Origin: a virus | IMG/VR virus record: IMGVR_UViG_3300027856_000451 | Coordinates: 1 to 42,959 of that record | DNA: 42,959 bases | Strand: one strand, 5' to 3' | Position numbers and translations under genes: made by a program | The notes under the pieces: model-generated | Told to the model about the DNA's origin: nothing | The model's database searches: none | The model's input: only the letters and a program-made list of their open reading frames with translations | Part shown: positions 11,853 to 40,321 of the stretch, piece by piece | How the letters are laid out: each line of letters begins with the position of its first letter | How positions within the stretch are numbered: the stretch's first letter is position 1

Positions 11853-11860
11853 TATTTAGA
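11853..11860 (-). promoter_or_regulatory. Late-like octamer TCTAAATA (minus strand)
   Basis: On the minus strand TCTAAATA, then CTTCT, then the GTG of the 11290-11847 gene, a 5-nt gap. It overlaps the end of the FolE gene. Confidence 0.4.
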
Positions 11861-12568: not shown

Positions 12569-13180
12569 ATGCCCTTCATTCATGAGCATGATCTTTGCTT
12601 CGTACATATCCCAAAGACAGGGGGTATCTCTATTATTAATAAATTTGGCATAAAAGATAATTCTTTGAATACATGTTATAGAGAAGAAGAACTTCCGTAT
12701 TATTGCAATGAAAAAGGTAAAGAGTTAATCTTTTCACCTCAACATTTTACTCCAAGTATGATAAAAGAAAGATATGAAATTTTTTATAATCCATACAAAA
12801 AATTTACAATAGTAAGGAACCCATATACAAGAGCAATATCTGAATATTTCTTTAGAGAAAGAAATGTTACAACATTTGATAATGATCAATTTTTAAGGTG
12901 GTGGCAAACATTTACATACTCTAATTGTGATCATTTTTTATCTCAAAGTACATATTTTGAAGATATTAATTATGATTATGTAATAAGATATGAAAACTTA
13001 GAACAAGAATTCAATGATATGTGTAAAGAAGAAGGTGTACCTGAAGGGTTACCTCATATGAATAAATCTCGTATTGATACTTGTTCTTGTGTTCCTTTAT
13101 TAACTAAGGAATCCGTAGAATTCATTAATACTCTTTATATAGAGGATTTTACCAAATTTAATTATAAATTATTACCATGA
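12569..13180 (+). CDS. Sulfotransferase-family protein
   Basis: A 203-residue protein with an intact 5'-phosphosulfate loop, FVHIPKTGGISIINKFG (11-27, catalytic K16). It also has a 3'-phosphate-binding motif, FTIVRNPYTRAISEYFF, near residues 76-92. The C-terminal half (YDYVIRYENLEQEFNDMC) contains the conserved YE-N-L-x-x-(D/E)F segment of carbohydrate sulfotransferases. It would move sulfate from PAPS to a glycan. The stop overlaps the next ATG by 4 nt, linking it to a glycosyltransferase, so a sulfated sugar is a reasonable product. It is only loosely similar to the other sulfotransferase at 6696-7343. Confidence 0.8.
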   Translation: MPFIHEHDLCFVHIPKTGGISIINKFGIKDNSLNTCYREEELPYYCNEKGKELIFSPQHFTPSMIKERYEIFYNPYKKFTIVRNPYTRAISEYFFRERNVTTFDNDQFLRWWQTFTYSNCDHFLSQSTYFEDINYDYVIRYENLEQEFNDMCKEEGVPEGLPHMNKSRIDTCSCVPLLTKESVEFINTLYIEDFTKFNYKLLP

Positions 13181-15517: not shown

Positions 15518-15545
15518 TTGATTCCATTTGCACCTAACTTATAAT
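15518..15545 (+). promoter_or_regulatory. Sigma70-type promoter of queD
   Basis: -35 TTGATT (15518-15523), 16-bp spacer, -10 TATAAT (15540-15545), then 6 nt to ATG 15552. It shows that the upstream TTG at 15528 in the same frame is not the start, because it lies inside the spacer. Confidence 0.8.
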
Positions 15546-15551
15546 AGAGAT

Positions 15552-16373
15552 ATGAAATTTCAGAGTACTAAGGTTATTGAATTAGGTAGCTGTGCTTTTA
15601 GGCAACCAAAAGCTAATCATTCCCATTGTAGGTTCCTACACGGTTACAGACTTACAGCTAAATTTTGGTTTGCCGCTAGTGAACTAGACGAGAATAATTG
15701 GGTGGTAGATTTTGGTGGGTTAAAAGGTCTTAAAGAAAAATTAAAAAATCAATTCGATCACACAACTTGTATTGCAGCAGATGATCCAGCATTGCCTGTT
15801 TTTAAAGAATTAGAAAAAGCTGGTGCATGTGATTTGAGAGTAATGTCAAATGGTACTGGTGTTGAAAGAATTGCTGAGTGGTGCTACGATACCGCGGACT
15901 TTTTTATTAAAGCAGCTACTAATGATAGGTGTTATGTTGAAAAGGTTGAAGTCTTTGAGCATGAAGATAATAGCGCTATATTTACTAGGATAGTTACCCA
16001 AACTATGAGATTTGATAATAAACCCGAAGATGTTGATTGGGATGCATATAGAGAGGCAGAAGCATGCGGCCCGCAAGCAAATCCTAAAGATTTTGTTAAG
16101 TCTACACCTTTACATGAAATGGGTGAAAATATAGATCCTATTGACGAAAAGAAAAGGATTGATGAACAGGCTGAAAAACGTAAAGAAGCATCAGAGAAAA
16201 AAATTGAGGATGAAGATGAACGTCAACGCATGTTACCCGGTTCAAAAAGAACTAAAGAAGTGGGTGCAAGAGTCGGTGCAGGTCCTAAAACACACGATGC
16301 AGGTGATCCATTTGGTGGTACCAGTTGGGGTGCTGATAAACCTTCAGATCCTTATGCACCAGCAAGAGGTTAA
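15552..16373 (+). CDS. queD: 6-carboxytetrahydropterin synthase (QueD) with long C-terminal extension
   Basis: A 273-residue protein from ATG 15552. Residues 1-150 are the QueD/6-pyruvoyl-tetrahydropterin-synthase domain: CAFRQPKANHSHCRFLHGYRL is the zinc and catalytic-Cys region, and VVDFGGLKGLKEKL and FDHTTCIAADDP are the usual DF-x-x-LK and LDH-like segments. The enzyme converts dihydroneopterin triphosphate (the FolE product) to 6-carboxytetrahydropterin on the way to preQ0. The canonical HGH reads HGY here (H30, Y32); H23 or H25 may supply the missing ligand. Residues 150-273 are a charged then Gly/Pro-rich tail not found in bacterial enzymes (about 120 aa). Confidence 0.85.
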   Translation: MKFQSTKVIELGSCAFRQPKANHSHCRFLHGYRLTAKFWFAASELDENNWVVDFGGLKGLKEKLKNQFDHTTCIAADDPALPVFKELEKAGACDLRVMSNGTGVERIAEWCYDTADFFIKAATNDRCYVEKVEVFEHEDNSAIFTRIVTQTMRFDNKPEDVDWDAYREAEACGPQANPKDFVKSTPLHEMGENIDPIDEKKRIDEQAEKRKEASEKKIEDEDERQRMLPGSKRTKEVGARVGAGPKTHDAGDPFGGTSWGADKPSDPYAPARG

Positions 16374-17331: not shown

Positions 17332-18075
17332 ATGCAATTTGGTGAAGGAAATATATTTCTTAGTGATGATAAGATATTTTATACTGTAGAGGGTGAAGGT
17401 GAATTCGTTGGTTATCCTTCGGTTTTCATGAGATTATCTATGTGTAATCTTACATGTAAAGGGTTTGCAAGTGCAACAGCACCTCATGGGTGTGATAGTT
17501 TTATATCTTGGAGGGTAAAAAATAAAATGAGTTTTACGGAAATCCTTTCTATGTTGAATGATGAAGGGTATACTGAACATCTTAAGAATGGTGCTTTGCT
17601 AAAAATTACAGGTGGTGAACCATTAGTACAGCAGCCTTCGTTATTGAGATTCATGCAATATATGGATGTTGAATGGGGTTGGGTACCACGTATAGATTTT
17701 GAAACTAATGCAACTATAATGCCAGACCCAGAATGGTTGAGATTAAAAGCAACCTTTACTACATCACCTAAATTAGCTAATAATGGTGATCCAGAAGATA
17801 GGAGATATAAACCAGAAGTTTTAGATTGGCATTCTACAAATGGGTCTGGGTTTAAATTTGTGGTTAATAAAGAATCTGATTTAGATGAAATATTTGAAAA
17901 ATATATAGAACCATTTGATATACCAACTGGTAGGATTTGGTTAATGCCTTGTTGTGGAAGCAGAGACGAACATATTGAAGCAGCTCCTATGGTAGCTGAG
18001 ATGGCTAAAAAGCATCATTTCAATTTTAGTCCAAGATTACATCTACTTGTATGGGATATGGCACTCAAGGTTTGA
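17332..18075 (+). CDS. queE: 7-carboxy-7-deazaguanine synthase, radical SAM (QueE)
   Basis: A 247-residue radical-SAM enzyme that turns 6-carboxytetrahydropterin into 7-carboxy-7-deazaguanine. The N-terminal FYTVEGEGEFVGYPSVFMRL is the QueE signature, and ITGGEPLVQQ is the SAM-binding GGE motif. The cluster cysteines are C38, C42 and C54: the usual CxxxCxxC is replaced by C-x3-C-x11-C. Expanded spacings are known in some QueE enzymes, so it may still bind a [4Fe-4S] cluster. Near the end, RIWLMPCCGSRDEH matches the QueE C-terminal region. It is read from its own sigma70-type promoter. FolE, QueD and QueE are all present here; QueC was not seen in this window. Confidence 0.92.
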   Translation: MQFGEGNIFLSDDKIFYTVEGEGEFVGYPSVFMRLSMCNLTCKGFASATAPHGCDSFISWRVKNKMSFTEILSMLNDEGYTEHLKNGALLKITGGEPLVQQPSLLRFMQYMDVEWGWVPRIDFETNATIMPDPEWLRLKATFTTSPKLANNGDPEDRRYKPEVLDWHSTNGSGFKFVVNKESDLDEIFEKYIEPFDIPTGRIWLMPCCGSRDEHIEAAPMVAEMAKKHHFNFSPRLHLLVWDMALKV

Positions 18076-19944: not shown

Positions 19945-20054
19945 TCTTAAAGTTAATCCTAATCGCATTACCCGTATTAATACTATGTGGTTGCAAAAGT
20001 ACGCCTCATCCAGATACCACACCAATACCACGAAGTAATGAATTACGAATATAA
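19941..20054 (+). CDS. Very small lipoprotein
   Basis: A 37-residue ORF that starts in an ATGA overlap with the preceding gene. MILKLILIALPVLILCGC is a short lipoprotein signal, with the lipidated Cys most likely at 18 (L-C-G-C). The mature peptide is only 20 residues, Pro- and Thr-rich (KSTPHPDTTPIPRSNELRI). Its last 17 nt overlap the start of the superoxide dismutase in another frame. Size and Pro content recall Rz1-type outer-membrane spanins, but no inner-membrane partner lies next to it. It could instead be a translational coupler or a small exported peptide. Confidence 0.55.
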   Translation: MILKLILIALPVLILCGCKSTPHPDTTPIPRSNELRI

Positions 20055-20673
20055 AATACAACGAATTTTAGAAGCAAATACGGCCAAGTATTATATGAAT
20101 AAGCTTGGTTATTCTTTTAAAGACTTAGAACCTCATATAGGACGAAAAACGATGAAATTTCATTACGACGTCCATTATCGTAACTTCACTAAAGGTCTAA
20201 ATGAAGCGTTAGGTAACCGCCCTAAACCAAATATTACGGTGCTTTTAAAAACTATTAAAAAATATGATGCTAAAGTAAATCATAATGCTGGTGGGTATTA
20301 TAATCATTCAATGTATTGGAAATTTATGAAACCAGGTGGAACTAAAATTTCTACTCAAACAGAATTAGGTAGAGCTATAAAGTCTACATTTGGTTCCTTT
20401 AATAATTTTAAGAAAGAGTTTAAAGAGAAAGGAACATCAATTTATGGTAGTGGTTGGGTGTGGTTAGTAAAAAATAAAGATAAACTTGAAGTTATAACCA
20501 CCCCCAATCAAGATAACCCTTTAATGCACAATCAAGGGCAACCTGTTTTTGGTAACGATATGTGGGAACATGCTTACTATTTAGATGACGGTCCTTATAA
20601 ACATGAATTCATGGACAAATATTTTAACGTCGTTGATTGGGATTTTTGTAACAGTTTATTCATCGCAAATTGA
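20038..20673 (+). CDS. sod: Manganese/iron superoxide dismutase
   Basis: A 211-residue superoxide dismutase from ATG 20038. The metal ligands are all present: H42 (FHYDVHYRNF), H90 (YYNHSMYW), D174 and H178 (NDMWEHAYY). G85-G86 before H90 and Q158 in NQDNPLM follow the Mn-type signature rather than the Fe-type. Compared with E. coli SodB the second-shell gate Tyr34 is Phe (F50) and His31 is Tyr (Y47), which may change turnover or product inhibition. The N-terminus has about 12 extra residues, MNYEYKIQRILE, ending in L-E. It overlaps the small lipoprotein gene. It would remove superoxide in the infected cell, or in the virion if packaged. Confidence 0.9.
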   Translation: MNYEYKIQRILEANTAKYYMNKLGYSFKDLEPHIGRKTMKFHYDVHYRNFTKGLNEALGNRPKPNITVLLKTIKKYDAKVNHNAGGYYNHSMYWKFMKPGGTKISTQTELGRAIKSTFGSFNNFKKEFKEKGTSIYGSGWVWLVKNKDKLEVITTPNQDNPLMHNQGQPVFGNDMWEHAYYLDDGPYKHEFMDKYFNVVDWDFCNSLFIAN

Positions 20674-24089: not shown

Positions 24090-24839
24090 ATGCGTATTGC
24101 TGTATCTGGTACCGCTTGTCAAGGAAAGACAACTTTTATTAAAGACTTCATAAAAGAATGGCCTATGTATTCTACACCTGAGAAGACATACAGAGACTTT
24201 ATTTCTGAAAATAACCTCCCTCATAGCGATAATACTAATCAAGACGCTCAATGGTCAATATTAAACTATGTCGTTGATAATATTCTTGAATCTGAAAAAG
24301 GGGATAAAATTATCTATGATAGATGTCCTTTAGATAATTTGGTTTATTCTTTGTGGGCTCATGAAAAAGGTATTAATGATATTGACAAAGCTTTTATTAA
24401 TAAATGCATTCCTGTGGTGAGAGAAAGTTTAAAATTTATTGATGTCATTTTCTTGACCCCTATTACAAATGTAAGTCCTATAGATATAGTTGATGATGGT
24501 ACGAGATCAATTAATATAGAACACATAGAAGAAATAGATCATTTATTCAAAGGTATAGAACAACAATATTTTCAAAATTTAAAAGCTTCACCGTTTTTAC
24601 CGTATGATGATTGTCCTGCAATTGTTGAAATATTCGGTAATCAACAAGAACGTGTGCATTTAGTGAGGCAGTATCTAGATGCTGAAGGTGATTTATTAGG
24701 TGATAATGAATCTTCTATTTTGGATCCTGGAGAGGTATCTGATATGGAATCTATTATAAGAGATCAACGCGTTGAAATTGCAAATGAAAAAGCTCGTCAA
24801 GATGTGCTTATCAAACAGATTCAAGATTCTAGAAATTAA
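24090..24839 (+). CDS. P-loop kinase/ATPase (AAA_28/NadR-like) with C-terminal coiled coil
   Basis: A 249-residue protein from ATG 24090 (an in-frame upstream ATG lies inside the preceding gene). SGTACQGKTTFIKDF (6-20) is the Walker A loop. YDRCPLDNLVYSLW (about 72-85) resembles the DR-x-x-D-x-x-(A/V)-Y motif of small-molecule kinases such as NadR or nucleoside kinases. The last 50 residues form a charged helix, likely coiled coil (MESIIRDQRVEIANEKARQD). It may phosphorylate a nucleoside or nucleotide-like substrate, fitting its MazG-like neighbour. Stop codons of this gene and the convergent 24836-25948 gene share bases. Confidence 0.7.
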   Translation: MRIAVSGTACQGKTTFIKDFIKEWPMYSTPEKTYRDFISENNLPHSDNTNQDAQWSILNYVVDNILESEKGDKIIYDRCPLDNLVYSLWAHEKGINDIDKAFINKCIPVVRESLKFIDVIFLTPITNVSPIDIVDDGTRSINIEHIEEIDHLFKGIEQQYFQNLKASPFLPYDDCPAIVEIFGNQQERVHLVRQYLDAEGDLLGDNESSILDPGEVSDMESIIRDQRVEIANEKARQDVLIKQIQDSRN

Positions 24840-25948
24840 GCTGGTGTCCCGTAAACTCTAAGCATAACGTTCGCCGTATCCCATAACGTGGGTGTTTCAT
24901 AATCCTGCATCCCATCCGGCATAATTCTCCAGCTTGAAGGTAAACCACCTGCTTGAGGTATTAGTTTTATAAATTCAGAAAATTGGCTTGTTAAAACGCT
25001 TTGAATTATTTGAGGGTCAAAATCATAAGATCGTTGTTTCCCTACAGATGTTTGATTGATAGCAGTAGCCTCAGGACTTCCTAAAGCAGTAAAACTACCT
25101 ATAGGCTTATTCTTTACGTCCTTTCTAACTGATGTTCCTTTACGAATACCAAAATATTCTAAATTACCAAAATCTGCTTGAGGTATTACGGTAAAATTTA
25201 TAGGTATAGCATTACCGTTAGTACCATTTGGAATAGCGTAGCTACCTGCGGTAGTTACAATGCTATCTCGCCCATCACCAAATTGAACCAATAAAGCTGA
25301 TTTGTTAGTTGTTTGACTCCCCATACCCCCGGTAAAAGCAACTTCCCATGTAACCCCAATATAAGAATACTGAGCTCCCCCTGTTGTTGAAGTTATAAGA
25401 GGTATTATGTCGTCGTCTGTGGATGTATTAATCGAACTGAAAGTATTATTATATTCGCTAATGTTGTTATATAAGCCTGCAGTACCTGTAAAGACCGGTA
25501 CGTTATTGTTTACTTGTAAAATATCTCCCTCTAGTCCTGGTTCAATTACTTTCCATGATGAAGAACCGCCTGCATATCTTACAAGACTTCCTGATTTAAC
25601 ATCATTTGTAGGTAACCAGTGTGTTGTACTTAATTTTTGAACCGTTGCGTATGTACTACTCCAATTAGCGCTTTGTTCACGTACTAATGTACCCACACCA
25701 CCTAAACTTGAAAGTGCATTAATCGAGGTATTAATAGCACTAAATGCATTGGTTAGACTCACTACTTGACTCGAAAGACTTTCGATTGTTGAATAAAAAT
25801 CTACATTATCAGCAGTTAAAATTAAATTTTGAAAATCTAGTTTATATATAACCCCGTCTGAAACGGTAAACAAATAATCTCCATTTACTATATCTTGAAT
25901 CTCCGCTATACTATCTAGAGTAATAAAATTGGTATTGCCAATTGACAT
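24836..25948 (-). CDS. Probable tail-fibre or appendage structural protein
   Basis: A 370-residue, Ser/Thr/Asn/Gly-rich protein without enzyme motifs. The N-terminal 30 residues (ITLDSIAEIQDIVNGDYLFTV) look like the fibre-base segment often seen in phage appendages. Residues 50-90 contain a short heptad stretch (IESLSSQVVSLTNAFSAINT), a likely trimeric coiled coil. The rest is beta-rich with many Gly/Asn turns, as in fibre shafts and tips. It is on the minus strand, alone, with a late-type octamer (CATAAATA) 6 nt before its ATG. The adhesin role is inference from composition. Confidence 0.55.
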   Translation of the reverse strand: MSIGNTNFITLDSIAEIQDIVNGDYLFTVSDGVIYKLDFQNLILTADNVDFYSTIESLSSQVVSLTNAFSAINTSINALSSLGGVGTLVREQSANWSSTYATVQKLSTTHWLPTNDVKSGSLVRYAGGSSSWKVIEPGLEGDILQVNNNVPVFTGTAGLYNNISEYNNTFSSINTSTDDDIIPLITSTTGGAQYSYIGVTWEVAFTGGMGSQTTNKSALLVQFGDGRDSIVTTAGSYAIPNGTNGNAIPINFTVIPQADFGNLEYFGIRKGTSVRKDVKNKPIGSFTALGSPEATAINQTSVGKQRSYDFDPQIIQSVLTSQFSEFIKLIPQAGGLPSSWRIMPDGMQDYETPTLWDTANVMLRVYGTPA

Positions 25949-25969
25949 TTTAATTATTTATGCTAAAAT
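25942..25969 (+). promoter_or_regulatory. Sigma70-type promoter of the glycan island
   Basis: -35 TTGACA (25942-25947, perfect consensus), 16-bp spacer, -10 TAAAAT (25964-25969) with an extended TGC before it, then 11 nt to ATG 25981. It shows that the in-frame ATG at 25960, inside the spacer, is not used from this promoter. Confidence 0.75.
25955..25962 (-). promoter_or_regulatory. T4-late-like octamer CATAAATA (minus strand)
   Basis: CATAAATA then ATTAAA and the ATG of the minus-strand structural gene, a 6-nt gap. It lies inside the spacer of the divergent sigma70-type promoter, so early plus-strand and late minus-strand transcription are likely mutually exclusive. Confidence 0.5.
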
Positions 25970-25980
25970 ACTTATGTACC

Positions 25981-27006
25981 ATGGCAATTTCAAAGTCACC
26001 TCAGCAGATATTAAACGGTCAAGGTAAACTGGTTGGTATTAATGCTGAAAGACCGGCTGCTATCGCAGCGCGCTCTTCATATTGGGACTGGATAGGGTCA
26101 ATCCCATCTTGGAAACCACCACCTCTTAAAGATACTGTAGGTTTAGCTATTATTACTTGTAATAGGGAAAATTTTCTTGAAAAGGTATTAGCTTCAATAC
26201 CAAGACATAAAATCCACTATCTTTGCATTATTAATGATGGTGACAGCCCAGATTTTAAAAATAAATCAGATCATGGCCCAAGAAGATTTGTATATAGTAA
26301 AGACGGCCTTTGCGGTAATTATTTTTATACTGGTGGTAATAGGGGTGTTGGTTTTGCTAAAAACTGGGCATTTACACAACTGCTGAAAACTGGCCATTCT
26401 CAAGAATTGCAGCATTGGCCGGGTGATAAACAAGGTATAGATCATATGTTCTTAATGGAAGATGATATTATCATAAAAGACGAAAACGTTTTTGAAAAGT
26501 ATATTGAAGCAAGTAAGAAAACAGGATTAAAACATTTAATGTATGGTTACCACGGCCCGGCAAATAAACGTAACGGTAAACCCTTTCCAAGAAAAATAGT
26601 TGATTATGGTGATGGTGTTTCAATTGCTCTTAACACACATTGTGTAGGTGCATTTACATATTATCATAGAAGTTGCGTTGAAAAGGTTGGGTTGTTTGAT
26701 AACCACTATATTAATGCTTTTGAACACGTTGATCATTCTTATATGTTAGCAAAAGAAAAAATGTCTACCCCTTACTGGTGGTGGGCTGATGTAGCTAATA
26801 GTTATGATTATTTGGATGAATTGGCTTGTAGTGAAAATAACAGTACAATTAGAGGTCGATCAGACTGGTTACAAAATATTAAAAATGCGGTTCATCATTT
26901 TGAAAAAAAACACGGGTACCAACCAGCATACGACAGACCGGTGCCTGATACTCCATTTGAAGAGGTACTTGATAACCTAAAACAAATTAAATTATGCACG
27001 ACTTAA
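25981..27006 (+). CDS. Family 2-type glycosyltransferase
   Basis: A 341-residue protein from ATG 25981. VGLAIITCNRENFLEKVLASIP (about 46-67) is the nucleotide-binding start of GT2 enzymes. MFLMEDDIIIKDENVFEKYI (about 157-176) holds the acidic ED-D metal motif. HCVGAFTYYHRSCVEKVGLFD and FEHVDHSYMLAKEK are the acceptor-side GT2 motifs (the second in place of ED-x-D/ExDxxxR). It leads a run of overlapping glycan genes from a strong promoter. It would transfer a sugar from a nucleotide donor in the cytoplasm; donor unknown. Confidence 0.8.
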   Translation: MAISKSPQQILNGQGKLVGINAERPAAIAARSSYWDWIGSIPSWKPPPLKDTVGLAIITCNRENFLEKVLASIPRHKIHYLCIINDGDSPDFKNKSDHGPRRFVYSKDGLCGNYFYTGGNRGVGFAKNWAFTQLLKTGHSQELQHWPGDKQGIDHMFLMEDDIIIKDENVFEKYIEASKKTGLKHLMYGYHGPANKRNGKPFPRKIVDYGDGVSIALNTHCVGAFTYYHRSCVEKVGLFDNHYINAFEHVDHSYMLAKEKMSTPYWWWADVANSYDYLDELACSENNSTIRGRSDWLQNIKNAVHHFEKKHGYQPAYDRPVPDTPFEEVLDNLKQIKLCTT

Positions 27007-27848
27007 AAAACATAACATTTTTAACTTTTGTAAGATTAGATAATGAAGAACGTAGATCTAATCTTAAAGCAATGTATAATTTTTATAAAAACAATTGTGA
27101 AAATTACACCCATATTTTTATTGAAGATGATAGTGAATGTAAAATTCACGATGTAATTGATTTAGATAAAAAAGATATTTCAATTTTTGTAAAAAGTCAA
27201 ACAGAATGGCGAAAAGGTGAAGGGTATAACAAAGGAATTAAATTAGCAAAAACTAATATTTTAAATTTTATTGATACTGATATCATTATTGACCCCAATC
27301 AATTAAACGAAACTGCAGAGTTACTTCGCAAAGATATTAATGCAGGTTTAGTATATCCTTACAATGGTTTGTTTCTTTGTGCTGAAAAAGAAATGAAAGA
27401 TAAATTTTGTGAGACATTATCTTTAGATACTTTCAAAATTCCTGAAAAGTTCAAAACCTTCACGGGCTCAAGAGACCAATCAATACAAACCCTCTCTAGT
27501 TATCTTAATAAAACGTATGATGGTATTTTAGTAGGGCATGTAATTAGTAAAGGTGGTTGTGTAATGGGTAGGAAAGATAATCTAATTCGTTGTAATGGGT
27601 ATAATCCTAACTTTTTAGGGTGGGGGTATGAAGATGATGAAGCACCATATAGAGTCAATAAACTTGGCTACGGTGTTGGTAGAATCGAAGGTAGAGGGAA
27701 GGTTGTATGGCATTTACACCATTTTGATGGAACAGGTTCAAAAAAAGAGAAACAACCCTTCTATAAAGAAAATCAAAAAATTATGGTTCATGTTGAAACT
27801 GTTTCTTCTTACGAATTAAAAAACTATACAAAAAGTTGGGTAATGTAA
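26994..27848 (+). CDS. Glycosyltransferase with GT7-C-like (galactosyltransferase) domain
   Basis: A 284-residue GT-A protein. GYNKGIKLAKTNILNFIDTDIIIDP (about 75-100) contains the D-T-D metal motif. SKGGCVMGRKDNLIRCNGYN, then FLGWGYEDDEAPYRV (about 180-215), matches the C-terminal galactosyltransferase (GT7-C) signature G-x-x-x-x-x-(F/W)xGWGxED. HLHHF near 240 may supply the last metal ligand. It overlaps both neighbours (13 nt upstream, 1 nt downstream), so it belongs to the island operon. It is similar in layout to 28729-29658 and probably derives from a duplication. Confidence 0.8.
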   Translation: MHDLKNITFLTFVRLDNEERRSNLKAMYNFYKNNCENYTHIFIEDDSECKIHDVIDLDKKDISIFVKSQTEWRKGEGYNKGIKLAKTNILNFIDTDIIIDPNQLNETAELLRKDINAGLVYPYNGLFLCAEKEMKDKFCETLSLDTFKIPEKFKTFTGSRDQSIQTLSSYLNKTYDGILVGHVISKGGCVMGRKDNLIRCNGYNPNFLGWGYEDDEAPYRVNKLGYGVGRIEGRGKVVWHLHHFDGTGSKKEKQPFYKENQKIMVHVETVSSYELKNYTKSWVM

Positions 27849-28729
27849 TGAAAATCGGAGTATTAACTGGAGCAGATGAAAATCAGAAAAATTTATTAGA
27901 TATTACACTACCAATATTAAAACAGTATTGTCTTTATCATGATTACGATTTGCATTATTTTACAGATAATGTAGACGGTATAACTCAAATAGAAGGTAAA
28001 TCTTATTTTGCTAGATATCCTTTTATGAAAAAGCATTTAAAAAACTATGATTGGGTTTTTTGGATAGATGCTGATTGCTTAGTTATGAATTTTTATAAAA
28101 AATTAGAAGACTATATTGATGATAGATATGACATTATTTTAGATTTACAATGTGGTTGTACATATCCTCTAGCAGCCTCTGGACATGGTTTTTGGAAAGA
28201 TGATGAAAATACACATTACATTTTAGATCATATGATTACACATGCTAAAAAAAGCAGCCCGGGTATAGCTGATAATGAAATATTAAATTATTTCTTTAAA
28301 AAGCTCTTTAATGAGCAAAAAGTTGAATTTGAAAAAAGCGTCAAGTTGTGCGGTCCTGGTAAAGATAGGATAGGTCATTATGATAAAGAAATTATAGAAT
28401 GTGAAATTCATCAAAAATTGGGATTTCCAGAAGGTGAATTTCATCTTCATGAAGATGTTGATAAACTTCATGTTTCATTTGAAGATATATATAGGCCTGG
28501 TAGAGATTTTCTTTACCATAGATCGGGTGTTAGTAAATTAGAAAAACGAACTGAAAATGCTCTTAATTTTAGTGACGGGTATTGCACACCACCAAGAATG
28601 TTTGCTACAAAAGAGAGTGATTTAAAATACCACGCGGATAGAGTGGTAAGACCGAAAATAGTTCCTAAATCTTTAAAGGATAAAATCGACCAGCGCGAAT
28701 GGTTGTACACAGCACTAAACCCAGAATAA
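27848..28729 (+). CDS. GT34-like glycosyltransferase
   Basis: A 293-residue protein from ATG 27848, which overlaps the previous stop (TAATG). YARYPFMKKHLKNYDWVFWIDADCLVMN-type sequence (about 55-83) carries a D-A-D metal motif after an aromatic strand, as in the galactosyl/mannosyltransferase family GT34 (GMA12/MNN10). SSPGIADNEILNYFF near 137-151 matches the AD-(N/Q)-x-x-(I/L) acceptor motif. A later H-L-H-E-D and H-V-S-F provide possible metal His. It is coupled to both neighbours. Substrate unknown. Confidence 0.7.
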   Translation: MKIGVLTGADENQKNLLDITLPILKQYCLYHDYDLHYFTDNVDGITQIEGKSYFARYPFMKKHLKNYDWVFWIDADCLVMNFYKKLEDYIDDRYDIILDLQCGCTYPLAASGHGFWKDDENTHYILDHMITHAKKSSPGIADNEILNYFFKKLFNEQKVEFEKSVKLCGPGKDRIGHYDKEIIECEIHQKLGFPEGEFHLHEDVDKLHVSFEDIYRPGRDFLYHRSGVSKLEKRTENALNFSDGYCTPPRMFATKESDLKYHADRVVRPKIVPKSLKDKIDQREWLYTALNPE

Positions 28730-29658
28730 TGGAAGATTTAAAAGATATAGATATTATCGTTGCTACTAGAATAGATAACCACGAAAGAGCAATGAATGCT
28801 TTTTTAATGTATAGATTTTTTAAAGAACATACAATAAACAGCAGGTTTATTTTTGTTGAAGACTCTGCATCACCTTTTCTTCAAAGTTGTATACCAATAG
28901 AAGAAACTGACAAAATGTATTTTGAGCAAAATAGTTATTGCGTTGATCCGGATTCATCACATCAACAAAATGATGGTTTTTTTAGAAAAAGCAGATCATA
29001 CAATATAGGTATTGAAAAAAGCGAAAGAGAATATTTGTTATTTTTAGATTTAGATTGTGTGGTAAACCCTAAACAAATTATAGACATTTTAGATAAAATT
29101 AAAAAGAAGAAAGGGTTTGGTATATGTTATAATGGTCAACCTGCTTATTTAACTTATAATGCAAAGCAACTATATGCAGACGCTCCTTTATTTTCTACAT
29201 TAGAATCATTTTATCCTGATTTTAAAGTATTAGAGGTAGCTTTAGATAATAGAAGACGAGGGTTCCCTTCTTGGCCTGATTCTTTAAAGTATGAACACTG
29301 TAAAATTTTGGGTGTTAACGCATGTGGTGGTTGTCTATTAGGTAGGAAAAAAGACTTTATCAAAATAAAAGGGTTTAATGAAAATTTTGCGGGTTGGGGA
29401 TATGAAGATACGGAAATTATAAGTCGTATTAGAATTTTATATGGAAAATCACCGACCTTGGACTGGAAAACCGATCACGAACCTTTTTATAGGTGTGAAA
29501 ATAAAGAAGACTTTTTATTTCACTTTCCTCATACTAAAGAGTCGGTAACTTCACATCAAATTGTTTTAACAGGTAATAAAAAAGAATCTGATAAAGTAGA
29601 GGGTATGAACACAAAAGAACTTACAAAATATATTAAAACTTGGCCATGGTTAAAGTAA
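28729..29658 (+). CDS. Glycosyltransferase with GT2/GT7-C fold (chondroitin-polymerase-like motifs)
   Basis: A 309-residue protein from ATG 28729 (overlapping the preceding stop). It starts IDIIVATRIDNHERAMNAF. SYNIGIEKSEREYLLFLDLD (about 90-109) holds the D-x-D metal motif, and ACGGCLLGRKKDFIKIKGFN, then FAGWGYEDTEIISRI (about 200-235), is the GT7-C signature G-W-G-x-E-D. Chondroitin synthases and beta-1,4-galactosyltransferases share this arrangement. It overlaps the GT10 gene by 13 nt. It is a relative of 26994-27848. Confidence 0.8.
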   Translation: MEDLKDIDIIVATRIDNHERAMNAFLMYRFFKEHTINSRFIFVEDSASPFLQSCIPIEETDKMYFEQNSYCVDPDSSHQQNDGFFRKSRSYNIGIEKSEREYLLFLDLDCVVNPKQIIDILDKIKKKKGFGICYNGQPAYLTYNAKQLYADAPLFSTLESFYPDFKVLEVALDNRRRGFPSWPDSLKYEHCKILGVNACGGCLLGRKKDFIKIKGFNENFAGWGYEDTEIISRIRILYGKSPTLDWKTDHEPFYRCENKEDFLFHFPHTKESVTSHQIVLTGNKKESDKVEGMNTKELTKYIKTWPWLK

Positions 29659-30488
29659 ACATAAGAGACGATAATTTTACTCCTTGGGATACGTCATCGT
29701 GTCATCTAGCTGAAAACAAACACATTGAATGGGTTACAGATAATGAACCCGTAAGTACTAGCTGCTTCATTACGGATTTAAAATTAGCTGACGTGCATAA
29801 AGCTTCGGGTGTTAAACGGAAGGTTGCCTGGTTATTAGAACCAAGAAGCATTAACCCTGGAATGTATAGCTGGATTGAAGAAAATAATAACCTTTATGAT
29901 TTCGTTTTAACTTTTGATCAAAAATTAATTAATAAGGGTCAAAATTACCTTTATTACCCGCATGGTAGGTGTTGGATTCATAACTACGAAGGTATAGATG
30001 ATAAGACAAAATTTTGTAGTATATTTGCATCTGATAAAGCTATGACTTTAGGTCATAGACTCAGACATATGATCATAGATCGGTATCGTAGTACAGATAA
30101 AATGGATTGCTATGGTAAGTATTCAGGTAACGTATTAGAAAAGAAAGAAGATGGGCTTAACCCGTATCGTTTTTCAGTTACGATAGAAAATGCTATTGTA
30201 AGAGGGTATTGGACTGAAAAGTTATTAGATGCATTTGCTACAAAATCCATACCAATTTATTACGGTGATAAATTTTCAGTAAACAAGTTTTTTAATGAAG
30301 ATGGTATTCTATACTTTGATACAATAGAACAGCTTGATGAAATAATGGAAAAGATTCAAGGTGATGATAACGGTGTAAGTTTCTATGAAGAAAGATTAGA
30401 TGCTATAGAAGAGAATTTTAAAAAGGTAGAGGAATTTAGAGTTCCGGAAGATTGGATATTTGAAGAATATCCGTTTTTATTCGAATAA
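29646..30488 (+). CDS. GT10 alpha-1,3/4-fucosyltransferase-like protein
   Basis: A 280-residue protein from ATG 29646. KVAWLLEPRSINPGMYSWIE (about 57-76) matches the acceptor-domain strand of GT10 enzymes. DGLNPYRFSVTIENAIVRGYWTEKLLDAF, in pieces NPYRFSVTIEN and GYWTEKLLDAF, is the GDP-fucose-binding signature YKFxLxxENxxxxxYxTEKxxxA. IPIYYGD follows it as expected. The enzyme would transfer fucose from GDP-fucose, supplied by the host or by genes outside the window. It overlaps both neighbours. No membrane anchor is present. Confidence 0.85.
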   Translation: MVKVNIRDDNFTPWDTSSCHLAENKHIEWVTDNEPVSTSCFITDLKLADVHKASGVKRKVAWLLEPRSINPGMYSWIEENNNLYDFVLTFDQKLINKGQNYLYYPHGRCWIHNYEGIDDKTKFCSIFASDKAMTLGHRLRHMIIDRYRSTDKMDCYGKYSGNVLEKKEDGLNPYRFSVTIENAIVRGYWTEKLLDAFATKSIPIYYGDKFSVNKFFNEDGILYFDTIEQLDEIMEKIQGDDNGVSFYEERLDAIEENFKKVEEFRVPEDWIFEEYPFLFE

Positions 30489-31279
30489 TGGTTACAGTAC
30501 AAATAAAAGGTGGAATAGGAAATCAGTTGTATCAAATCGCAGCTGTATATAGTCATGCAAAGACGCACAATTTACAATTCGTTCTAAATTTCAATTTAGA
30601 ATTTGGTGCTATGCAAGGTACACACCCTAAATTATACGCGGATACTTTTTATAAAAATTTTGAAACTATAGATACTTTATTCAATATTGCTGCTCGAGAA
30701 CCTTCTTTCATGTACAAACCTTTACCGTTTTTGGGTATAGAGAATGATGTAGTATATGAAGGCTATTTTCAGAGTTGGAAATACTTTCAAAATTTAGATC
30801 GCGATACTTTGAATAGAGTATTTGAATTTGAAGATAAAATTGTAAAGAAGGTAGACAAAGGGCTGACATCTCTTAAAGAGAAGTACGGTGTAGAAAGAGT
30901 TGTTGGTGTTCATATTAGGAGAGGCGATTATCTTAAAAATCCTCAAATTTTTAATATCGTTAAAAGAGATTATTATGATAGAGCTAAAGAAATTTTTGGA
31001 AAAGATGCTCTATTTTTATATTGCACGGATGATTTACCTAGAGTGAAAAAAGAGTTTACTTTTGATGAAAGAAATGTCTTAGCAAATGGTGAATCGGAAA
31101 TGGAAGATTTGTGCGTTTTATCGCAATGTGATGATATTATAATGGCGAATAGTTCTTTTTCAGCTTGGGGTGGTTATTTAGGTAAAGAAAAAGGAAAGAT
31201 TATTTGCCCTAAAAAATGGTTTGAATATAAAGGACCACCTTGTACCGATTTAAAAGACCCAAAATGGGTACAGATCTAG
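30488..31279 (+). CDS. GT11 alpha-1,2-fucosyltransferase-like protein
   Basis: A 263-residue protein of normal length for bacterial GT11 enzymes. IKGGIGNQLYQIAAVYSHA (6-24) is the N-terminal motif, VVGVHIRRGDYL (about 135-146) is the GDP-fucose-binding HxRRGDY motif, and IIMANSSFSAWGGYL near 218-232 is the conserved C-terminal motif. It would add alpha-1,2 fucose. Its ATG overlaps the GT10 stop codon (TAATG), so two fucosyltransferases of different families are translated in tandem. Confidence 0.92.
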   Translation: MVTVQIKGGIGNQLYQIAAVYSHAKTHNLQFVLNFNLEFGAMQGTHPKLYADTFYKNFETIDTLFNIAAREPSFMYKPLPFLGIENDVVYEGYFQSWKYFQNLDRDTLNRVFEFEDKIVKKVDKGLTSLKEKYGVERVVGVHIRRGDYLKNPQIFNIVKRDYYDRAKEIFGKDALFLYCTDDLPRVKKEFTFDERNVLANGESEMEDLCVLSQCDDIIMANSSFSAWGGYLGKEKGKIICPKKWFEYKGPPCTDLKDPKWVQI

Positions 31280-31282
31280 ATA

Positions 31283-32044
31283 ATGGAAAAACAATACGGT
31301 TTAATTGAACAGACTTGCGGTATTGGCGATATATTTTATATTCAAAAGATCGCAAAACTTTTAATTGAAACAGGTACAGTCAAAAAAATAATATGGCCTG
31401 TTAAAGATGTATATAATTATGTTAATGACTATATGGGTACAGATACTATTCAATATATTCCCTTATCTGAATTTGAAGACCCGACTGGTTTATTTGATAA
31501 AGGTGTCAAACTAGATGCTGTTAGAGTAGAAAGTTTTAACACTCACGGTCCTACGCATTGGCTTTATTTACCCTTTACCCATTCAGATAAAAAATTTACT
31601 GGTTCTGTAATGAAAGCAAAATATAGGTTTGCTAATTTGGGTGGTGAATGGGATGACTGGGACAAATATTTTGAGTTTAAAAGGGACTTAGATAAAGAAG
31701 ATAAACTCATGGACCATCTAGGCATAAAAACAACTGATGATTATGTTGTTGTTAGTGGGGTGTATGGTACCCCTCCTGCAACTGCTTCTAGAAGAGTTGA
31801 GTATAAAGGAGATAAAAAGATAATAAAATTAGAACACGTGGAAGGTTATTCTGTTTTTGATTGGTGTAAAGTTTTTGAAAACGCTGCTGAAATTCATATG
31901 ATTGAAACTTGTTTTTTATATATCTTAGAGAAGCTAACTCTACAAGGAGATGTTTTTAATTTATATAGTAAATGGAACCCTGCTTTTTGGGATCATATTA
32001 AACATATCCCTAAAAAGGTAAAATGGAATTTTTGTAATTGGTAA
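31283..32044 (+). CDS. GT-B-like putative glycosyltransferase
   Basis: A 253-residue protein. GLIEQTCGIGDIFYIQKIAK (6-25) resembles the G-x-GD-x-(I/L) start of GT9/GT23-like GT-B enzymes. The C-terminal part (FDWCKVFENAAEIHMIETCF) matches the strand-helix-strand that carries the donor site (I-x-x-(A/C)-x-x-x-H-x-x-E/D). The central part is poorly conserved. It starts 3 nt after GT11 and is part of the same operon. Annotation as glycosyltransferase is from these two segments and context. Confidence 0.5.
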   Translation: MEKQYGLIEQTCGIGDIFYIQKIAKLLIETGTVKKIIWPVKDVYNYVNDYMGTDTIQYIPLSEFEDPTGLFDKGVKLDAVRVESFNTHGPTHWLYLPFTHSDKKFTGSVMKAKYRFANLGGEWDDWDKYFEFKRDLDKEDKLMDHLGIKTTDDYVVVSGVYGTPPATASRRVEYKGDKKIIKLEHVEGYSVFDWCKVFENAAEIHMIETCFLYILEKLTLQGDVFNLYSKWNPAFWDHIKHIPKKVKWNFCNW

Positions 32045-32051
32045 ATAAATT
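32044..32051 (+). promoter_or_regulatory. Late-like near-match AATAAATT
   Basis: AATAAATT then TTTGT and ATG 32057, a 5-nt gap. It differs from the xxTAAATA pattern only at the last base. Confidence 0.3.
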
Positions 32052-32056
32052 TTTGT

Positions 32057-32683
32057 ATGGGTGATATCTCAATATTCGATTTAAAAGCTGCTCAAGATCG
32101 AGTGAAGACACCCTATTTTGTCGAAACTGGGACGCTGTATGGTGATGGTGTCGAATTTGCTTACAAGCAAGGGTTCGAAGAGATTCATTCTATTGAAATT
32201 GAACCCTTTTTAGCACAACAAGCAAAAGAGAAGTTTAAAGCGTTTCCTAATATTCATATACATGAAGGTAATTCATTTGAAGTATTAGAACAAATTTTAC
32301 CGGAAATAAAAGACAATATTACATTTTGGTTAGATGCACATTTCCCTGGTGCCGACGCTCATATGAAGACGTATGAGTCCTGCCTTAGCCTAGACGTAGA
32401 TACTAATTTACCATTAGAGAGAGAAATAGAGCTAATAAGCAAACGAACTTCTAATTATACTGATATATTAATAGTAGATGATTTATGGATATATGAACCA
32501 ATTAAAATCAATGGAATAGGTTTTAACGAACATAGTTCAAATCACGGACATAAAATTACAAGAGAACAACTAATGAATGGAAAAGATTTGGGATTCTTAT
32601 ATAATAATTTTGACAAAACGCACGACTTTAAGAAGGTATTTAAACACCAAGGTTACGTTATAGTAAAACCGAAAAATGAGTAA
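32057..32683 (+). CDS. Class I methyltransferase-fold protein
   Basis: A 208-residue protein. TPYFVETGTLYGDGVEFAYK (18-37) is the SAM-binding motif I region (E-T-G-x-x-x-G-x-G). IHSIEIEPFLAQQAKEKF (about 44-61) is motif II with an acidic end of strand 2. HEGNSFEVLEQILP and FWLDAHFPGAD are later motifs. The sequence type is common in glycan and surface-modification clusters, so methylation of a sugar is plausible. It ends in an 8-nt overlap with the pyrophosphatase gene. Confidence 0.65.
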   Translation: MGDISIFDLKAAQDRVKTPYFVETGTLYGDGVEFAYKQGFEEIHSIEIEPFLAQQAKEKFKAFPNIHIHEGNSFEVLEQILPEIKDNITFWLDAHFPGADAHMKTYESCLSLDVDTNLPLEREIELISKRTSNYTDILIVDDLWIYEPIKINGIGFNEHSSNHGHKITREQLMNGKDLGFLYNNFDKTHDFKKVFKHQGYVIVKPKNE

Positions 32684-33221
32684 TTTAGTAAATGATATTC
32701 CAATTGGGGTTGATTGCCCAATAAAAATTAATGCTATTGTTGAAGTAGAAAAAGATAGCAATTCAAAATATGAATACGTAGAAGATCTTAATATCTTTAA
32801 ACTTAGTCGTTGTTTGTACAGTAGTATGCGATATACATGTTCGTATGGATTTATTCCTCAAACATTTGCTTTAGATAACGACCCATTAGATATACTAATA
32901 TATAATAACGTCCCTTTAAGAACTAGTACGCTTGTTGAAGTAAAACCAATTGGTTGTTTAGACATGGATGATACAGGAGAAAAGGATTTTAAAGTGGTGG
33001 CTGTTCCTTCAACACACGTAAAGGACTATAAAAGTTTAAAAGATCTGGACCCACATTGGCTAAAGACAACATTAAACTTTTTTACACATTATAAAGATTT
33101 GGAAGAGTCTAAGTCCGTTGTTGTAAATGGTTGGGTAGGGAAAACAGAAACAAAGAAAATTATTAACGAAGCACATAAAAGATGGGTTAAAAAGTTGAAG
33201 TCCGAAATGCCTGATCTATAA
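32676..33221 (+). CDS. ppa: Inorganic pyrophosphatase
   Basis: A 181-residue soluble family I pyrophosphatase. INAIVEVEKDSNSKYEYVED (18-37) is the N-terminal substrate-binding segment, YGFIPQTFALDNDPLDILIY (about 58-77) contains the D-x-D-P-x-D signature, and CLDMDDTGEKDFKVVAVP (about 94-111) holds further metal Asp residues and the D-x-K-x-(I/V). It hydrolyses PPi made by DNA synthesis and by nucleotide-sugar and nucleotidyltransferase reactions, pulling them forward. It overlaps the methyltransferase gene by 8 nt. Pyrophosphatase genes are uncommon in phage genomes. Confidence 0.93.
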   Translation: MSNLVNDIPIGVDCPIKINAIVEVEKDSNSKYEYVEDLNIFKLSRCLYSSMRYTCSYGFIPQTFALDNDPLDILIYNNVPLRTSTLVEVKPIGCLDMDDTGEKDFKVVAVPSTHVKDYKSLKDLDPHWLKTTLNFFTHYKDLEESKSVVVNGWVGKTETKKIINEAHKRWVKKLKSEMPDL

Positions 33222-37535: not shown

Positions 37536-38354
37536 ATGCGCTGGAAATCAAATTATTTCGAAATTCAGGATTTAATTATTCAATTTGCGAATGCTTTTGA
37601 TTCTATAGTTATAGGCAGATATAATAAAAATAGAGTTCAAAAAGATAGAATATTTGTAAGATATCTTTACGCACCAAAGCAACGCGTTTTATATGATATT
37701 GTAAACAAAGCAAAAACAATTACGTTACCTGTTGTAGCTATTAGCATTAATAGCATGACCAGAGACAATGATAGGGTTTTCAATAAACTTCCCGCTGTTG
37801 GACAGACAGGATCTGGAAACGCATTATATTATCAAGACGAATTTTCTCATGAAAAGTATAACATGCCAACACCAGTAAACATATCTGTAAACTTTTCTAT
37901 CATAACACGTTACCAAATGGATATGGATCAAATTCTTAGCAATTTTATTCCTTATACAAACCCATATATTATTATAAGTTGGCCCGTTCCAAAAAGTTTG
38001 GTCAATTTGATTGGGCCTCAGGAAATAAGAAGTGAGGTTTTATGGGATGGTAATATTAATTTACAATACCCTCTAGAATTAAGAGCTGGTGATAAAGCAC
38101 GAGTTACAGCAGATACTTCATTCACTATTAAAGGATGGATATTTCCTGCATCAGAAACTGCTATTGATAATATCTATAAAGTTACCACGAACTGGTACCC
38201 GGTCAGCGGGGCGAGAGGTACGGGCACGAAGCTCACAAGCGACAATTACCCGTCACTAAGTGCAGAGTTATCTGGAACACCTGGTAGTGATGTACTCACC
38301 GTTTCAGCGTTCCCAGATGAGATAGAAGTTTTTAGGAGCCAGCAAGTGCAATGA
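37536..38354 (+). CDS. 15: Tail sheath terminator/stabiliser (T4 gp15-like)
   Basis: A 272-residue protein, the same length as T4 gp15. RIFVRYLYAPKQRVLYDIV (about 37-55) aligns with T4 FIRVPITYASKEHFMMKL. MPTPVNISVNFSIITRYQMD (about 109-128) aligns with PSPIKMIYELSIFTRYEDD, and GWIFP near 207 with GWMYP. Gp15 hexamers cap the contracted-tail end and join it to the neck. It opens the late block and overlaps the Thr/Pro-repeat gene by 4 nt. Confidence 0.85.
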   Translation: MRWKSNYFEIQDLIIQFANAFDSIVIGRYNKNRVQKDRIFVRYLYAPKQRVLYDIVNKAKTITLPVVAISINSMTRDNDRVFNKLPAVGQTGSGNALYYQDEFSHEKYNMPTPVNISVNFSIITRYQMDMDQILSNFIPYTNPYIIISWPVPKSLVNLIGPQEIRSEVLWDGNINLQYPLELRAGDKARVTADTSFTIKGWIFPASETAIDNIYKVTTNWYPVSGARGTGTKLTSDNYPSLSAELSGTPGSDVLTVSAFPDEIEVFRSQQVQ

Positions 38355-39562
38355 TGAAAAAACGCGTACCATTAATGGCAAATGCAACCAGTTTAACTGG
38401 AGAAAGTAGACTTATATATAGTGAAGACCCTACTTCGTTTACTTTTCTTGCCCCTTGGTTGAAGAGCGCAGAAGGTACGGACGGGTTACAAAAATATTAT
38501 CAGGTATTTTTAAGCGCTGCTGATACTGATAATTTTTGGAGTGGTACTAGTACCCTTTCTTCTACCCCTTTAAGCAGTGTTGATTATTTTGGTCTAAATA
38601 ATTCTCTTTCAGCAAGGTTTCCTGCATTTAGTGGATATAATGTTGAAGATTTTGGAGGACAAGTAGAAAGAAACGATGCTACTCAACAAATAAAGGTTAA
38701 CATTTCTGCTCTATCAGCGGCAGCGACCGGTCACTTTCAATTTGTAATAACTGCTCCGGGTGGGTTAGTAATTTTTCCTGCTATTCAATACGGTCCAAAT
38801 GCAAAACCGGATGCACCTGCTTATTATATCCAAAGCAATTCAGTACCTATTACACCTACACCCACACAAACTTATACACAAACCTTAACCCAGACCCAGA
38901 CCATAACACCAACATGTACAAGAAATGTTTCGGTCACACGAACACCAACGGAATCACGAACACCCACTCAAACACAAACTGTTACACAAACAGCTAGTGT
39001 TGGTACAACGAAAACACCAACTCAAACACCAACTCAAACAAGAACAACTACACAATCATCAACACCAACAAGAACACCAACTTGGACAAGAACACCAACT
39101 CAAACAAGATCACAAACACCAACTAGAACCGTATCACCATCACAAACCCGTACTGTTACAAGAACAACTACGCAAACTAGAACACCCACTCAGACACCTA
39201 CACCTACACCAACACCAACACGCACAAAAACACAGACACCAACTCAGACTCGGACTCAAACTCAGACTCGAACACAGCAAGGTTCACCAACCCGTACACC
39301 TTCTAGAACACTTACTCAATCACCTACTATTACTAAATCTAACACTGCTACTCCGCTCGCTACCGTTACTCAAACCCAAACTCCTACACCAACACAGACA
39401 CCAACTTCAACACAGACACCAACACAGACAATTACAAGAACACGCACCCAAACACCGACTAGAACCCAGACTAGGACAAGTACTCAAACACAAACACGGT
39501 CGCAAACAAAAACACCTACTTTAACTAGAACCCGCACTCAAACAAAGACACCCGCCAGTTAA
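38351..39562 (+). CDS. Virion-type protein with mucin-like Thr/Pro/Gln repeat tail
   Basis: A 403-residue protein in two parts. Residues 1-165 look like a folded beta-rich domain (FLAPWLKSAEGTDGLQKYYQ; NISALSAAATGHFQFVITAP). Residues 165-403 are almost wholly Thr-x dipeptides: T-P-T-Q, T-R-T-P and T-Q-T. Thr is about half of the tail, with Pro, Gln, Arg and Ser making up most of the rest. Such tails are extended and are common sites of O-glycosylation. It overlaps gp15 by 4 nt and precedes a second protein of this type and the portal gene. A neck, collar or head decoration is likely. Function unknown. Confidence 0.6.
   Translation: MMKKRVPLMANATSLTGESRLIYSEDPTSFTFLAPWLKSAEGTDGLQKYYQVFLSAADTDNFWSGTSTLSSTPLSSVDYFGLNNSLSARFPAFSGYNVEDFGGQVERNDATQQIKVNISALSAAATGHFQFVITAPGGLVIFPAIQYGPNAKPDAPAYYIQSNSVPITPTPTQTYTQTLTQTQTITPTCTRNVSVTRTPTESRTPTQTQTVTQTASVGTTKTPTQTPTQTRTTTQSSTPTRTPTWTRTPTQTRSQTPTRTVSPSQTRTVTRTTTQTRTPTQTPTPTPTPTRTKTQTPTQTRTQTQTRTQQGSPTRTPSRTLTQSPTITKSNTATPLATVTQTQTPTPTQTPTSTQTPTQTITRTRTQTPTRTQTRTSTQTQTRSQTKTPTLTRTRTQTKTPAS
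38845..39556 (+). repeat. Low-complexity Thr-rich coding repeat
   Basis: A degenerate 6-12-bp coding repeat (ACACCAACTCAAACA-type steps) encoding the T-x-T-x tail. Copies are not identical in size and lack uniform spacers. A 30-bp block at 39110-39139 is repeated exactly at 40079-40108 in the next gene. Confidence 0.85.
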
Positions 39563-39597
39563 TCTTGATGCATAATTATTGACCATTAGTTGTAGCG

Positions 39598-39605
39598 AAT
39601 AAATA
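39598..39605 (+). promoter_or_regulatory. T4-late-like octamer AATAAATA
   Basis: AATAAATA then ATAGT and GTG 39611, a 5-nt gap. The same 13-base context (AATAAATAATAGT) occurs before the gp15 gene. Confidence 0.6.
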
Positions 39606-39610
39606 ATAGT

Positions 39611-40321
39611 GTGGCAGATATACCTACCTTCAGAGATTTAATTAGAACTACTAATCCTGGCCCTAGACTTGGCTCTGAATGGGCAAAAGTTAACGTTGTC
39701 GGTAGCAATATACCGGCTTCACCAACACCCACACCAACATTTACACCTACCACTACTTTAACTAAAAGCGAAACACCAAATATAACACAAACTAAAACCA
39801 TAACTTATACCCCATCTCCGACTTATACAAGAACTCAAACACCGACGAGAACAACGACCCCTGATGTAACTGCAACAAAAACATTAACAGTTACTCAGTC
39901 ACAAACCCAAACACCCACCCAATCGGCAACACCCACCCAGACTAGATCACAAACACCAACCCAGACTAGATCAGCTACTCAAACACCAACTATAACACTT
40001 TCTATTACAGATTCACCGGGCGCAACCCCAACACAAACAGCGACGAGCACTCAAACACCAACACCAACTAGAACGTCGTCACAAACACCAACTAGAACCG
40101 TATCACCAACAATTACAACATCTATTACAGATAATGCAACACCTACACCAACAAGCACAAAAACACAAACACCTACACAATCAAGAACCAAAACACAAAC
40201 ACCAACTAGATCTAAACCTAATGTATCACCTACCCCGACATATACAAAGACAAGAACAAAAACACAAACAAGAACGGTGACTAAATCTATAACAGTGTCG
40301 ATATCAGAATCAGGAAGTTAA
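39611..40321 (+). CDS. Second Thr/Pro-repeat virion-type protein
   Basis: A 236-residue protein starting at GTG 39611. Only the first 35 residues look non-repetitive (MADIPTFRDLIRTTNPGPRL). From about residue 36 to the end it is T-P-T/T-Q-T/T-K-T repeat like the preceding gene, and a 30-bp DNA block is shared exactly with it, so the two tails have exchanged or duplicated sequence. The short N-terminus may be an anchor to the neck or portal region. The tail is expected to be extended and to be a good glycosylation target. The portal gene follows 3 nt later. Confidence 0.6.
   Translation: MADIPTFRDLIRTTNPGPRLGSEWAKVNVVGSNIPASPTPTPTFTPTTTLTKSETPNITQTKTITYTPSPTYTRTQTPTRTTTPDVTATKTLTVTQSQTQTPTQSATPTQTRSQTPTQTRSATQTPTITLSITDSPGATPTQTATSTQTPTPTRTSSQTPTRTVSPTITTSITDNATPTPTSTKTQTPTQSRTKTQTPTRSKPNVSPTPTYTKTRTKTQTRTVTKSITVSISESGS
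39715..40310 (+). repeat. Low-complexity Thr-rich coding repeat
   Basis: The degenerate Thr-x coding repeat of the 39611-40321 gene. The block 40079-40108 is identical to 39110-39139. Confidence 0.85.

Follow-up and report, generated by a model that had tools for sequence, protein, structure and literature searches.

Gene content of the island and its divergent neighbour

The viral record IMGVR_UViG_3300027856_000451 (a single virus record, analysed as a whole 43 kb stretch of 42,959 nt and hereafter called the window) contains at 25981–32683 eight genes on one strand that overlap or lie no more than 12 bp apart. A first-pass annotation made from the sequence letters had described these genes as a glycan-assembly cluster, and this arrangement was borne out with the addition of a ninth gene, an inorganic pyrophosphatase (32676–33221; Pfam PF00719, 3.7e-48), which overlaps the eighth and ends an island spanning 25981–33221. 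In order on the plus strand, the other genes encode a GT-A-fold enzyme proposed as the initiating glycosyltransferase (GT; 25981–27006, hereafter the first GT), a GT-A enzyme of GT7-C/GT2-like type present as a recombining allele (26994–27848), a GT34-like/DUF273 GT (27836–28729, with an alternative ATG possible at 27848), a second GT7-C/GT2-like GT (28699–29658), members of the GT10 alpha-1,3-fucosyltransferase family (29640–30488) and the GT11 alpha-1,2-fucosyltransferase family (30488–31279), a GT-B enzyme with a GT9-like fold (31283–32044) and a class I S-adenosylmethionine (SAM)-dependent methyltransferase-like protein (32057–32683).

Both GT7-C/GT2-like proteins matched Glyco_transf_7C and Glyco_tranf_2_2 above the Pfam gathering score (PF02709 and PF10111 for the gene at 26994; PF02709 at 6e-12 for that at 28699), and so did the GT34-like protein with Glyco_transf_34 (PF05637, 6e-8) and DUF273 (PF03314, 9e-10). 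The GT34-like protein carries a WIDAD motif, and DxD-type motifs were found in the GT-A genes of the island. The GT10 protein scored 36.1 bits against PF00852 (7e-9; cut-off 23.9), matched the alpha-1,3-fucosyltransferase of PDB 2nzw at 1e-7 and retains the C-terminal donor-binding motif (ENAIVRGYWTEK and PIYYG), whereas the GT11 protein reached 95.6 bits against PF01531 (4e-27; cut-off 23.9) with HIRRGDY (HxRRxDY) at residue 142. Judged by these profiles and motifs, membership of both fucosyltransferase families with intact motifs is real. The families that the first-pass annotation had named (GT7-C twice, GT34, GT10 and GT11) stood up to Pfam above gathering score, and its GT-B gene was supported by fold and its methyltransferase-fold gene by profile.

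The AlphaFold2 model of the gene 31283 product (pLDDT 85, pTM 0.84) showed a GT-B fold, and the top Foldseek hit was 3tov of family GT9 (E = 7.7e-4, probability 1.00, query TM 0.54), followed by TibC and WaaC. No Pfam match at E ≤ 1 and no GT9 in the profile search against PDB were obtained for this protein, which by its model is GT9-shaped without sequence-profile membership of GT9. The gene 32057 product had no Pfam match; its profile matched PDB 3ntv at 2.4e-4 and further methyltransferases below 0.01, the motif I sequence ETGT..G was invariant across 12 sequences, and a homologue in cyanophage S-SCSM1 is annotated as methyltransferase. The gene 32057 product is a class I methyltransferase relative, for which methylation of a sugar is possible. 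The pyrophosphatase is kept at the island end in close and intermediate relatives and may pull nucleotide-sugar synthesis. The ratio of nonsynonymous to synonymous substitution (dN/dS) was 0.06–0.41 across the eight island genes where dS was unsaturated (0.07–0.11 for GT10) and remained ≤0.43 when the divergent neighbour was counted too; the island genes are under purifying selection.

This neighbour, on the minus strand at 24836–25948, encodes a putative fibre-like virion protein and is a candidate glycan acceptor. A minus-strand gene occupies this place in 19 of the 20 related islands described below. Its product is alike at the N-terminus and divergent at the C-terminus among 15 aligned relatives, and a conserved N-terminus with a variable C-terminus is common among the fibres and adhesins of phages. 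The protein matched nothing in Pfam, PHROG or the isolate phages.

The start codons of this gene and the first GT are separated by 32 bp (25949–25980), a divergent promoter region associated with TATTTATnnTAAAATA, CATAAATA and a sigma-70-like site. The last, TTGACA-N16-TAAAAT, faces the island and agrees with the consensus at 11 of 12 positions, but its −35 hexamer, which begins at position 25942, falls within the minus-strand gene where that gene has its start codons, and distant relatives have not kept it. The perfect-consensus promoter claimed earlier was therefore rejected. In nearly all relatives the AT-rich divergent element TATTTATnnTAAAATA is kept, which on the minus strand reads nATAAATA and resembles T4-type late promoters, and the late-T4-like CATAAATA faces the minus-strand gene; the promoter first reported is a partial reading of this conserved divergent element. 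The nATAAATA sequence also lies 13–17 bp upstream of several other window genes, some of them structural (the sites precede 1091, 9433(−), 9497, 19657, 25948(−), 37536, 39611 and 42138). Promoter-like sites in the region numbered 63 against 54.8 expected by chance. Shine-Dalgarno-like sites were at background in the window (3 of 49 genes vs 7%), so the transcripts may be nearly leaderless.

Fixed site and shifting content of related islands

Relatives were gathered with GT10, GT11 and the right-hand DUF366 neighbour as queries, which gave ~100 contigs, and the islands were compared in ~20 contigs with a visible left flank, the loci of which are not independent. On the left, the islands are bordered by an AAA gene, together with the minus-strand gene in 19 cases, and the right end is mostly the DUF366 gene. 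Between these borders, all nine genes stand in the same order in close relatives (L003–L006 and L008), and the island of L046 is reduced to four (first GT, GT7-C-like, GT10 and GT11). In more distant islands, methyltransferases, sulfotransferase-like genes and nucleotide-sugar dehydratases/epimerases come on top of these, and in some the fucosyltransferase genes are reversed, GT11 preceding GT10 in L048, L063 and L084. Both fucosyltransferases co-occur in 16 of 20 islands and both are undetected in the remaining four. Because order and content change between relatives, the gene order cannot be taken as the reaction order, and the ordered synthesis read from it in the first-pass annotation is not supported by this comparison.

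The alleles themselves are also mosaic. The window and L003 are mostly 94–100% identical (~97%) on the flanks of the 5′ half of the island and 64–72% identical over 26.5–27.7 kb, whereas the window and L008 are ~50–85% identical nearly throughout and 96% identical over 27.25–27.85 kb. These identities indicate that GT alleles have been exchanged between phages by recombination, a pattern that diversifying pressure on a surface trait would be expected to produce.

The search for GDP-fucose synthesis genes proposed in the first-pass annotation gave a divided answer. None was found in the window or in its closest 66 kb relative (G007), and epimerases were likewise absent from the window's island and from G007. 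More distant relatives carry gmd/fcl-related dehydratase/epimerase genes inside the island, including the genes of G001 nearest to gmd and fucose synthase, all of them below equivalog cut-offs. These genes hint at a GDP-6-deoxy-L-sugar as the donor, short of proof for fucose itself. In G007, a region to the left of the window's extent (L129:15178–16378) encodes a sugar nucleotidyltransferase-like protein and a KdsC-type phosphatase, which hints that another part of the genome may supply nucleotide sugars.

The first glycosyltransferase and the candidate acceptors

The first GT had no Pfam match; it matched the PHROG 1579 glycosyltransferase (E = 4.5e-17), its structure model showed a GT-A fold in Foldseek and its EDD motif was invariant across 17 relatives. 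The start was placed at 25981; the ATG at 25960 was rejected, as it forms part of the promoter element that relatives conserve and L046 lacks it. This gene heads 17 of 20 islands. Among 50,697 phage records, its sole matches were the mycobacteriophage GTs Ramsey gp106 and Myrna gp234, both weak. In bacterial and archaeal species genomes we found 35 relatives, 18 of which have a flagellin motif, fliA or flgM no more than ~7 kb away, and the flagellin, sigma factor, FlgM and FlgN neighbours were confirmed by Pfam in four loci (L164, L146, L161 and L143). The flagellar-locus members belong to Enterobacterales and Pseudomonas, and their loci are of flagellin-modification or other flagellar type. 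In the tree, no cellular group stood closer to the phage enzymes than the flagellar one (support 91/92), three phage members branched beside or within it, and the members from polysaccharide clusters were further out. The fliC–fliA inserts of Enterobacteriaceae, including Erwinia, Lonsdalea, Brenneria and Tatumella, are known as flagellin glycosylation islands (PMC4875605). The first GT is likely to be the initiating enzyme, and its nearest known family context, the protein glycosylation of a surface filament, is the best evidence for the nature of the acceptor that the sequences offer.

On this basis, we give a probability of roughly one half to the island being a cytoplasmic operon for a soluble pathway that places an oligosaccharide on a virion protein, a kind of target that the first-pass annotation had listed as possible and that is supported as such; the acceptor, sugars, linkage and reaction order are those that we infer. 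The first GT would attach the first sugar to a virion protein, with the 24836 fibre-like protein or another virion subunit as the most plausible acceptor, and chain elongation would fall to the GT34-like enzyme and both GT7-C/GT2-like enzymes. L-fucose or a closely similar GDP-L-sugar would be added by GT10 and GT11, the GT9-like enzyme would contribute a further sugar, the methyltransferase would cap the chain and the pyrophosphatase would clear the pyrophosphate released by sugar activation. The likely benefit would be a variable sugar coat that alters what binds the particle and that is diversified by recombination between phages. That 19 of 20 islands have a divergently oriented gene of virion-like pattern next to them supports this reading. 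Relatives in the mycobacteriophage groups of the first-GT matches are reported to glycosylate capsid and tail tube (PMC11256854, PMC12619734), and Che8 and its relatives (Freeman 2023, as cited in these two papers) resemble the present case in that phage GTs reportedly go with glycans on capsid and tail tube. The mycobacteriophages differ in having few GTs vs the eight enzymes here and in belonging to another phage lineage.

Several observations weigh against virion-protein glycosylation. The 24836 protein is a putative virion protein by its conservation pattern, and the kinship with the mycobacteriophage enzymes is remote (~25% identity, very long branch in the tree). Three of the related islands (L036, L040 and L066) lack the first GT at this site, so the enzyme is not obligatory. 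The 18 of 35 flagellar-locus relatives represent far fewer independent cases because they are phylogenetically clustered in two bacterial groups; in the Pseudomonas syringae group it is flgM/flgN, and not flagellin itself, that adjoins the GT, and family members beyond Enterobacterales and Pseudomonas sit in polysaccharide-type clusters. In addition, the cyanophage relatives of the module have been read as cell-wall or LPS (lipopolysaccharide) genes (PMC9602691).

A more specific and less probable version is that the island is the phage counterpart of the flagellin glycosylation islands. A virion fibre of this uncultured T4-like clade would then carry a long, fucosylated, strain-specific O-glycan started by a GT shared with flagellin loci, and the swapping of GT alleles among nearly identical phages would make the sugar coat variable. 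Both kinds of island (PMC4875605 for the bacterial ones) share the first-GT family (34–38% identity), GTs beside a surface-polymer gene, and variable content at a fixed site. Unlike the bacterial islands, this one holds no flagellin, its neighbour being a putative phage virion gene, and GT10/GT11 were not seen in the bacterial flagellar loci examined. The same affinity of the first GT could suggest that, in infected cells, flagellin or some other surface protein of the host receives the glycan. We consider this improbable, since on general grounds little new flagellin is expected in lytic growth and the flagellar affinity was seen for the first GT and not shown for the other GTs.

Modification of the host surface is the main rival and is judged less likely. 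Here, the soluble GTs would add branches bearing fucose and methyl groups to the host's LPS core, O-antigen or capsule precursors, and thereby block superinfection or alter recognition by grazers. The island belongs to a known type, the phage glycan cluster, and a homologous module is already present in the cultured cyanophages S-SM2 and S-T4: GT10, methyltransferase and GT-B homologues (the last being those of gene 31283) lie near each other in S-SM2 (SSM2_191-205), S-T4 and S-SCSM1, GT11-type genes also occur in some cyanophage clusters, and in S-SM2 and S-T4 the GT10–methyltransferase–GT-B module accompanies nucleotide-sugar and heptose genes that were interpreted as cell-wall/LPS functions (PMC9602691). 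The resemblance of the GT9-like enzyme to LPS heptosyltransferases in Foldseek points the same way. Unlike the window's island, the cyanophage clusters bring their own epimerases, heptose and nucleotide-sugar genes, no cyanophage has a match to the first GT, the S-SM2 cluster sits at a different site (downstream of nrdAB and tRNAs), and identity of the module to the island is only ~27–39%. Neither membrane segments in the proteins of the window's island nor a flippase, polymerase, lipid-carrier transferase or membrane protein were recognised there, which speaks against host-surface modification; since LPS core GTs are soluble, this rival still stands without membrane genes. The first GT being closer to flagellar-locus than to polysaccharide-cluster GTs, and the island adjoining a putative virion gene, favour the virion protein.

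Within the virion-protein reading, the acceptors could be the threonine/proline-repeat (Thr/Pro, mucin-like) proteins encoded at 38351–40321, a sub-case that we regard as rather unlikely. Two such proteins, each with long TxTxPT repeats, are encoded between the gene of the tail sheath stabiliser and that of the portal; in its N-terminal part, the first of them had no match among the 50,697 phage records, and similar repeats occur in long open frames of relatives, up to 2084 aa in G008. Thr-rich and Pro-rich stretches are classic O-glycan acceptors, and such proteins lie 6 kb downstream in the marine relatives with a visible interval. However, the 193 kb relative G001 has the first GT, GT10 and GT11 but no Thr-rich protein, which rules out the Thr/Pro proteins as obligatory acceptors. 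Moreover, several freshwater-type relatives lack them at the site, and L036 and L066 carry Thr-rich proteins yet no first GT at the site.

The first-pass annotation had also listed phage DNA as a target. A glycan on DNA bases in the manner of T4 would suit the T4-like portal, and glycans of diverse kinds are known to be placed on DNA by phage GTs (Pyle 2024, as cited in PMC12619734). This reading is nevertheless highly improbable, and T4-style DNA glucosylation was dropped as a leading idea: none of nine relatives (66–193 kb, which may be fragments) has a member of the thymidylate synthase/dCMP hydroxymethylase family. Instead, preQ0 pathway genes lie in the window at 11856–12518 (minus strand), 15528–16373 and 17332–18075, encoding GTP cyclohydrolase I (FolE), a QueD-type 6-pyruvoyltetrahydropterin synthase and, by a weak match, a QueE-like radical SAM protein; together with QueC identified by Pfam in G001 (L119:1382–2101, minus strand) they suggest a 7-deazaguanine DNA modification. 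No DNA glycosylation chain is known to reach eight enzymes with two fucosyltransferase families. Like T4 with agt/bgt, this T4-like phage has its own glycosyltransferases, but the island genes match neither of those families in Pfam or PHROG.

The default assignment of phage GT clusters is usually host LPS or DNA. Here, the acceptor question becomes testable, as the island is conserved and recombining, has a likely initiating enzyme and adjoins a candidate virion acceptor. Should the glycan go to virion proteins, variable sugar coats would be found across a widespread group of aquatic phages, with consequences for adsorption, grazing and the annotation of phage-borne GTs.

Source phage and genes outside the island

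By its genes, the source is a distantly T4-like aquatic myophage. Besides a helicase and a tail sheath stabiliser, the window encodes a portal of T4 type (Pfam, 8e-105). The closest isolate phage portals are only ~29–32% identical, which places it in an uncultured clade. No close DNA relative was found among isolate phages, and the DUF366 neighbour had no isolate phage match. The background level of Shine-Dalgarno-like sites and one contig (L157) of a Cyclobacteriaceae metagenome-assembled genome are too weak a basis for naming a host. On this phage-like contig, two genes that by eye look homologous to those at 3404 and 6063 in the window precede a homologue of the first GT and a gene of GT10-like type (sub-threshold in Pfam); the contig is possibly either a host hint or a binning artefact.

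Among the further GT and sulfotransferase genes that the first-pass annotation had placed outside the island, two were upheld as Sulfotransfer_2 members (6696–7343 and 12569–13180; Pfam 4e-7 and 3e-9), those at 4771 and 13177 were left without family support, and the gene at 18949 gave only a sub-threshold nucleotide-sugar transferase match. The window also encodes an Fe/Mn superoxide dismutase at 19987–20673 (Pfam, 1.6e-33).

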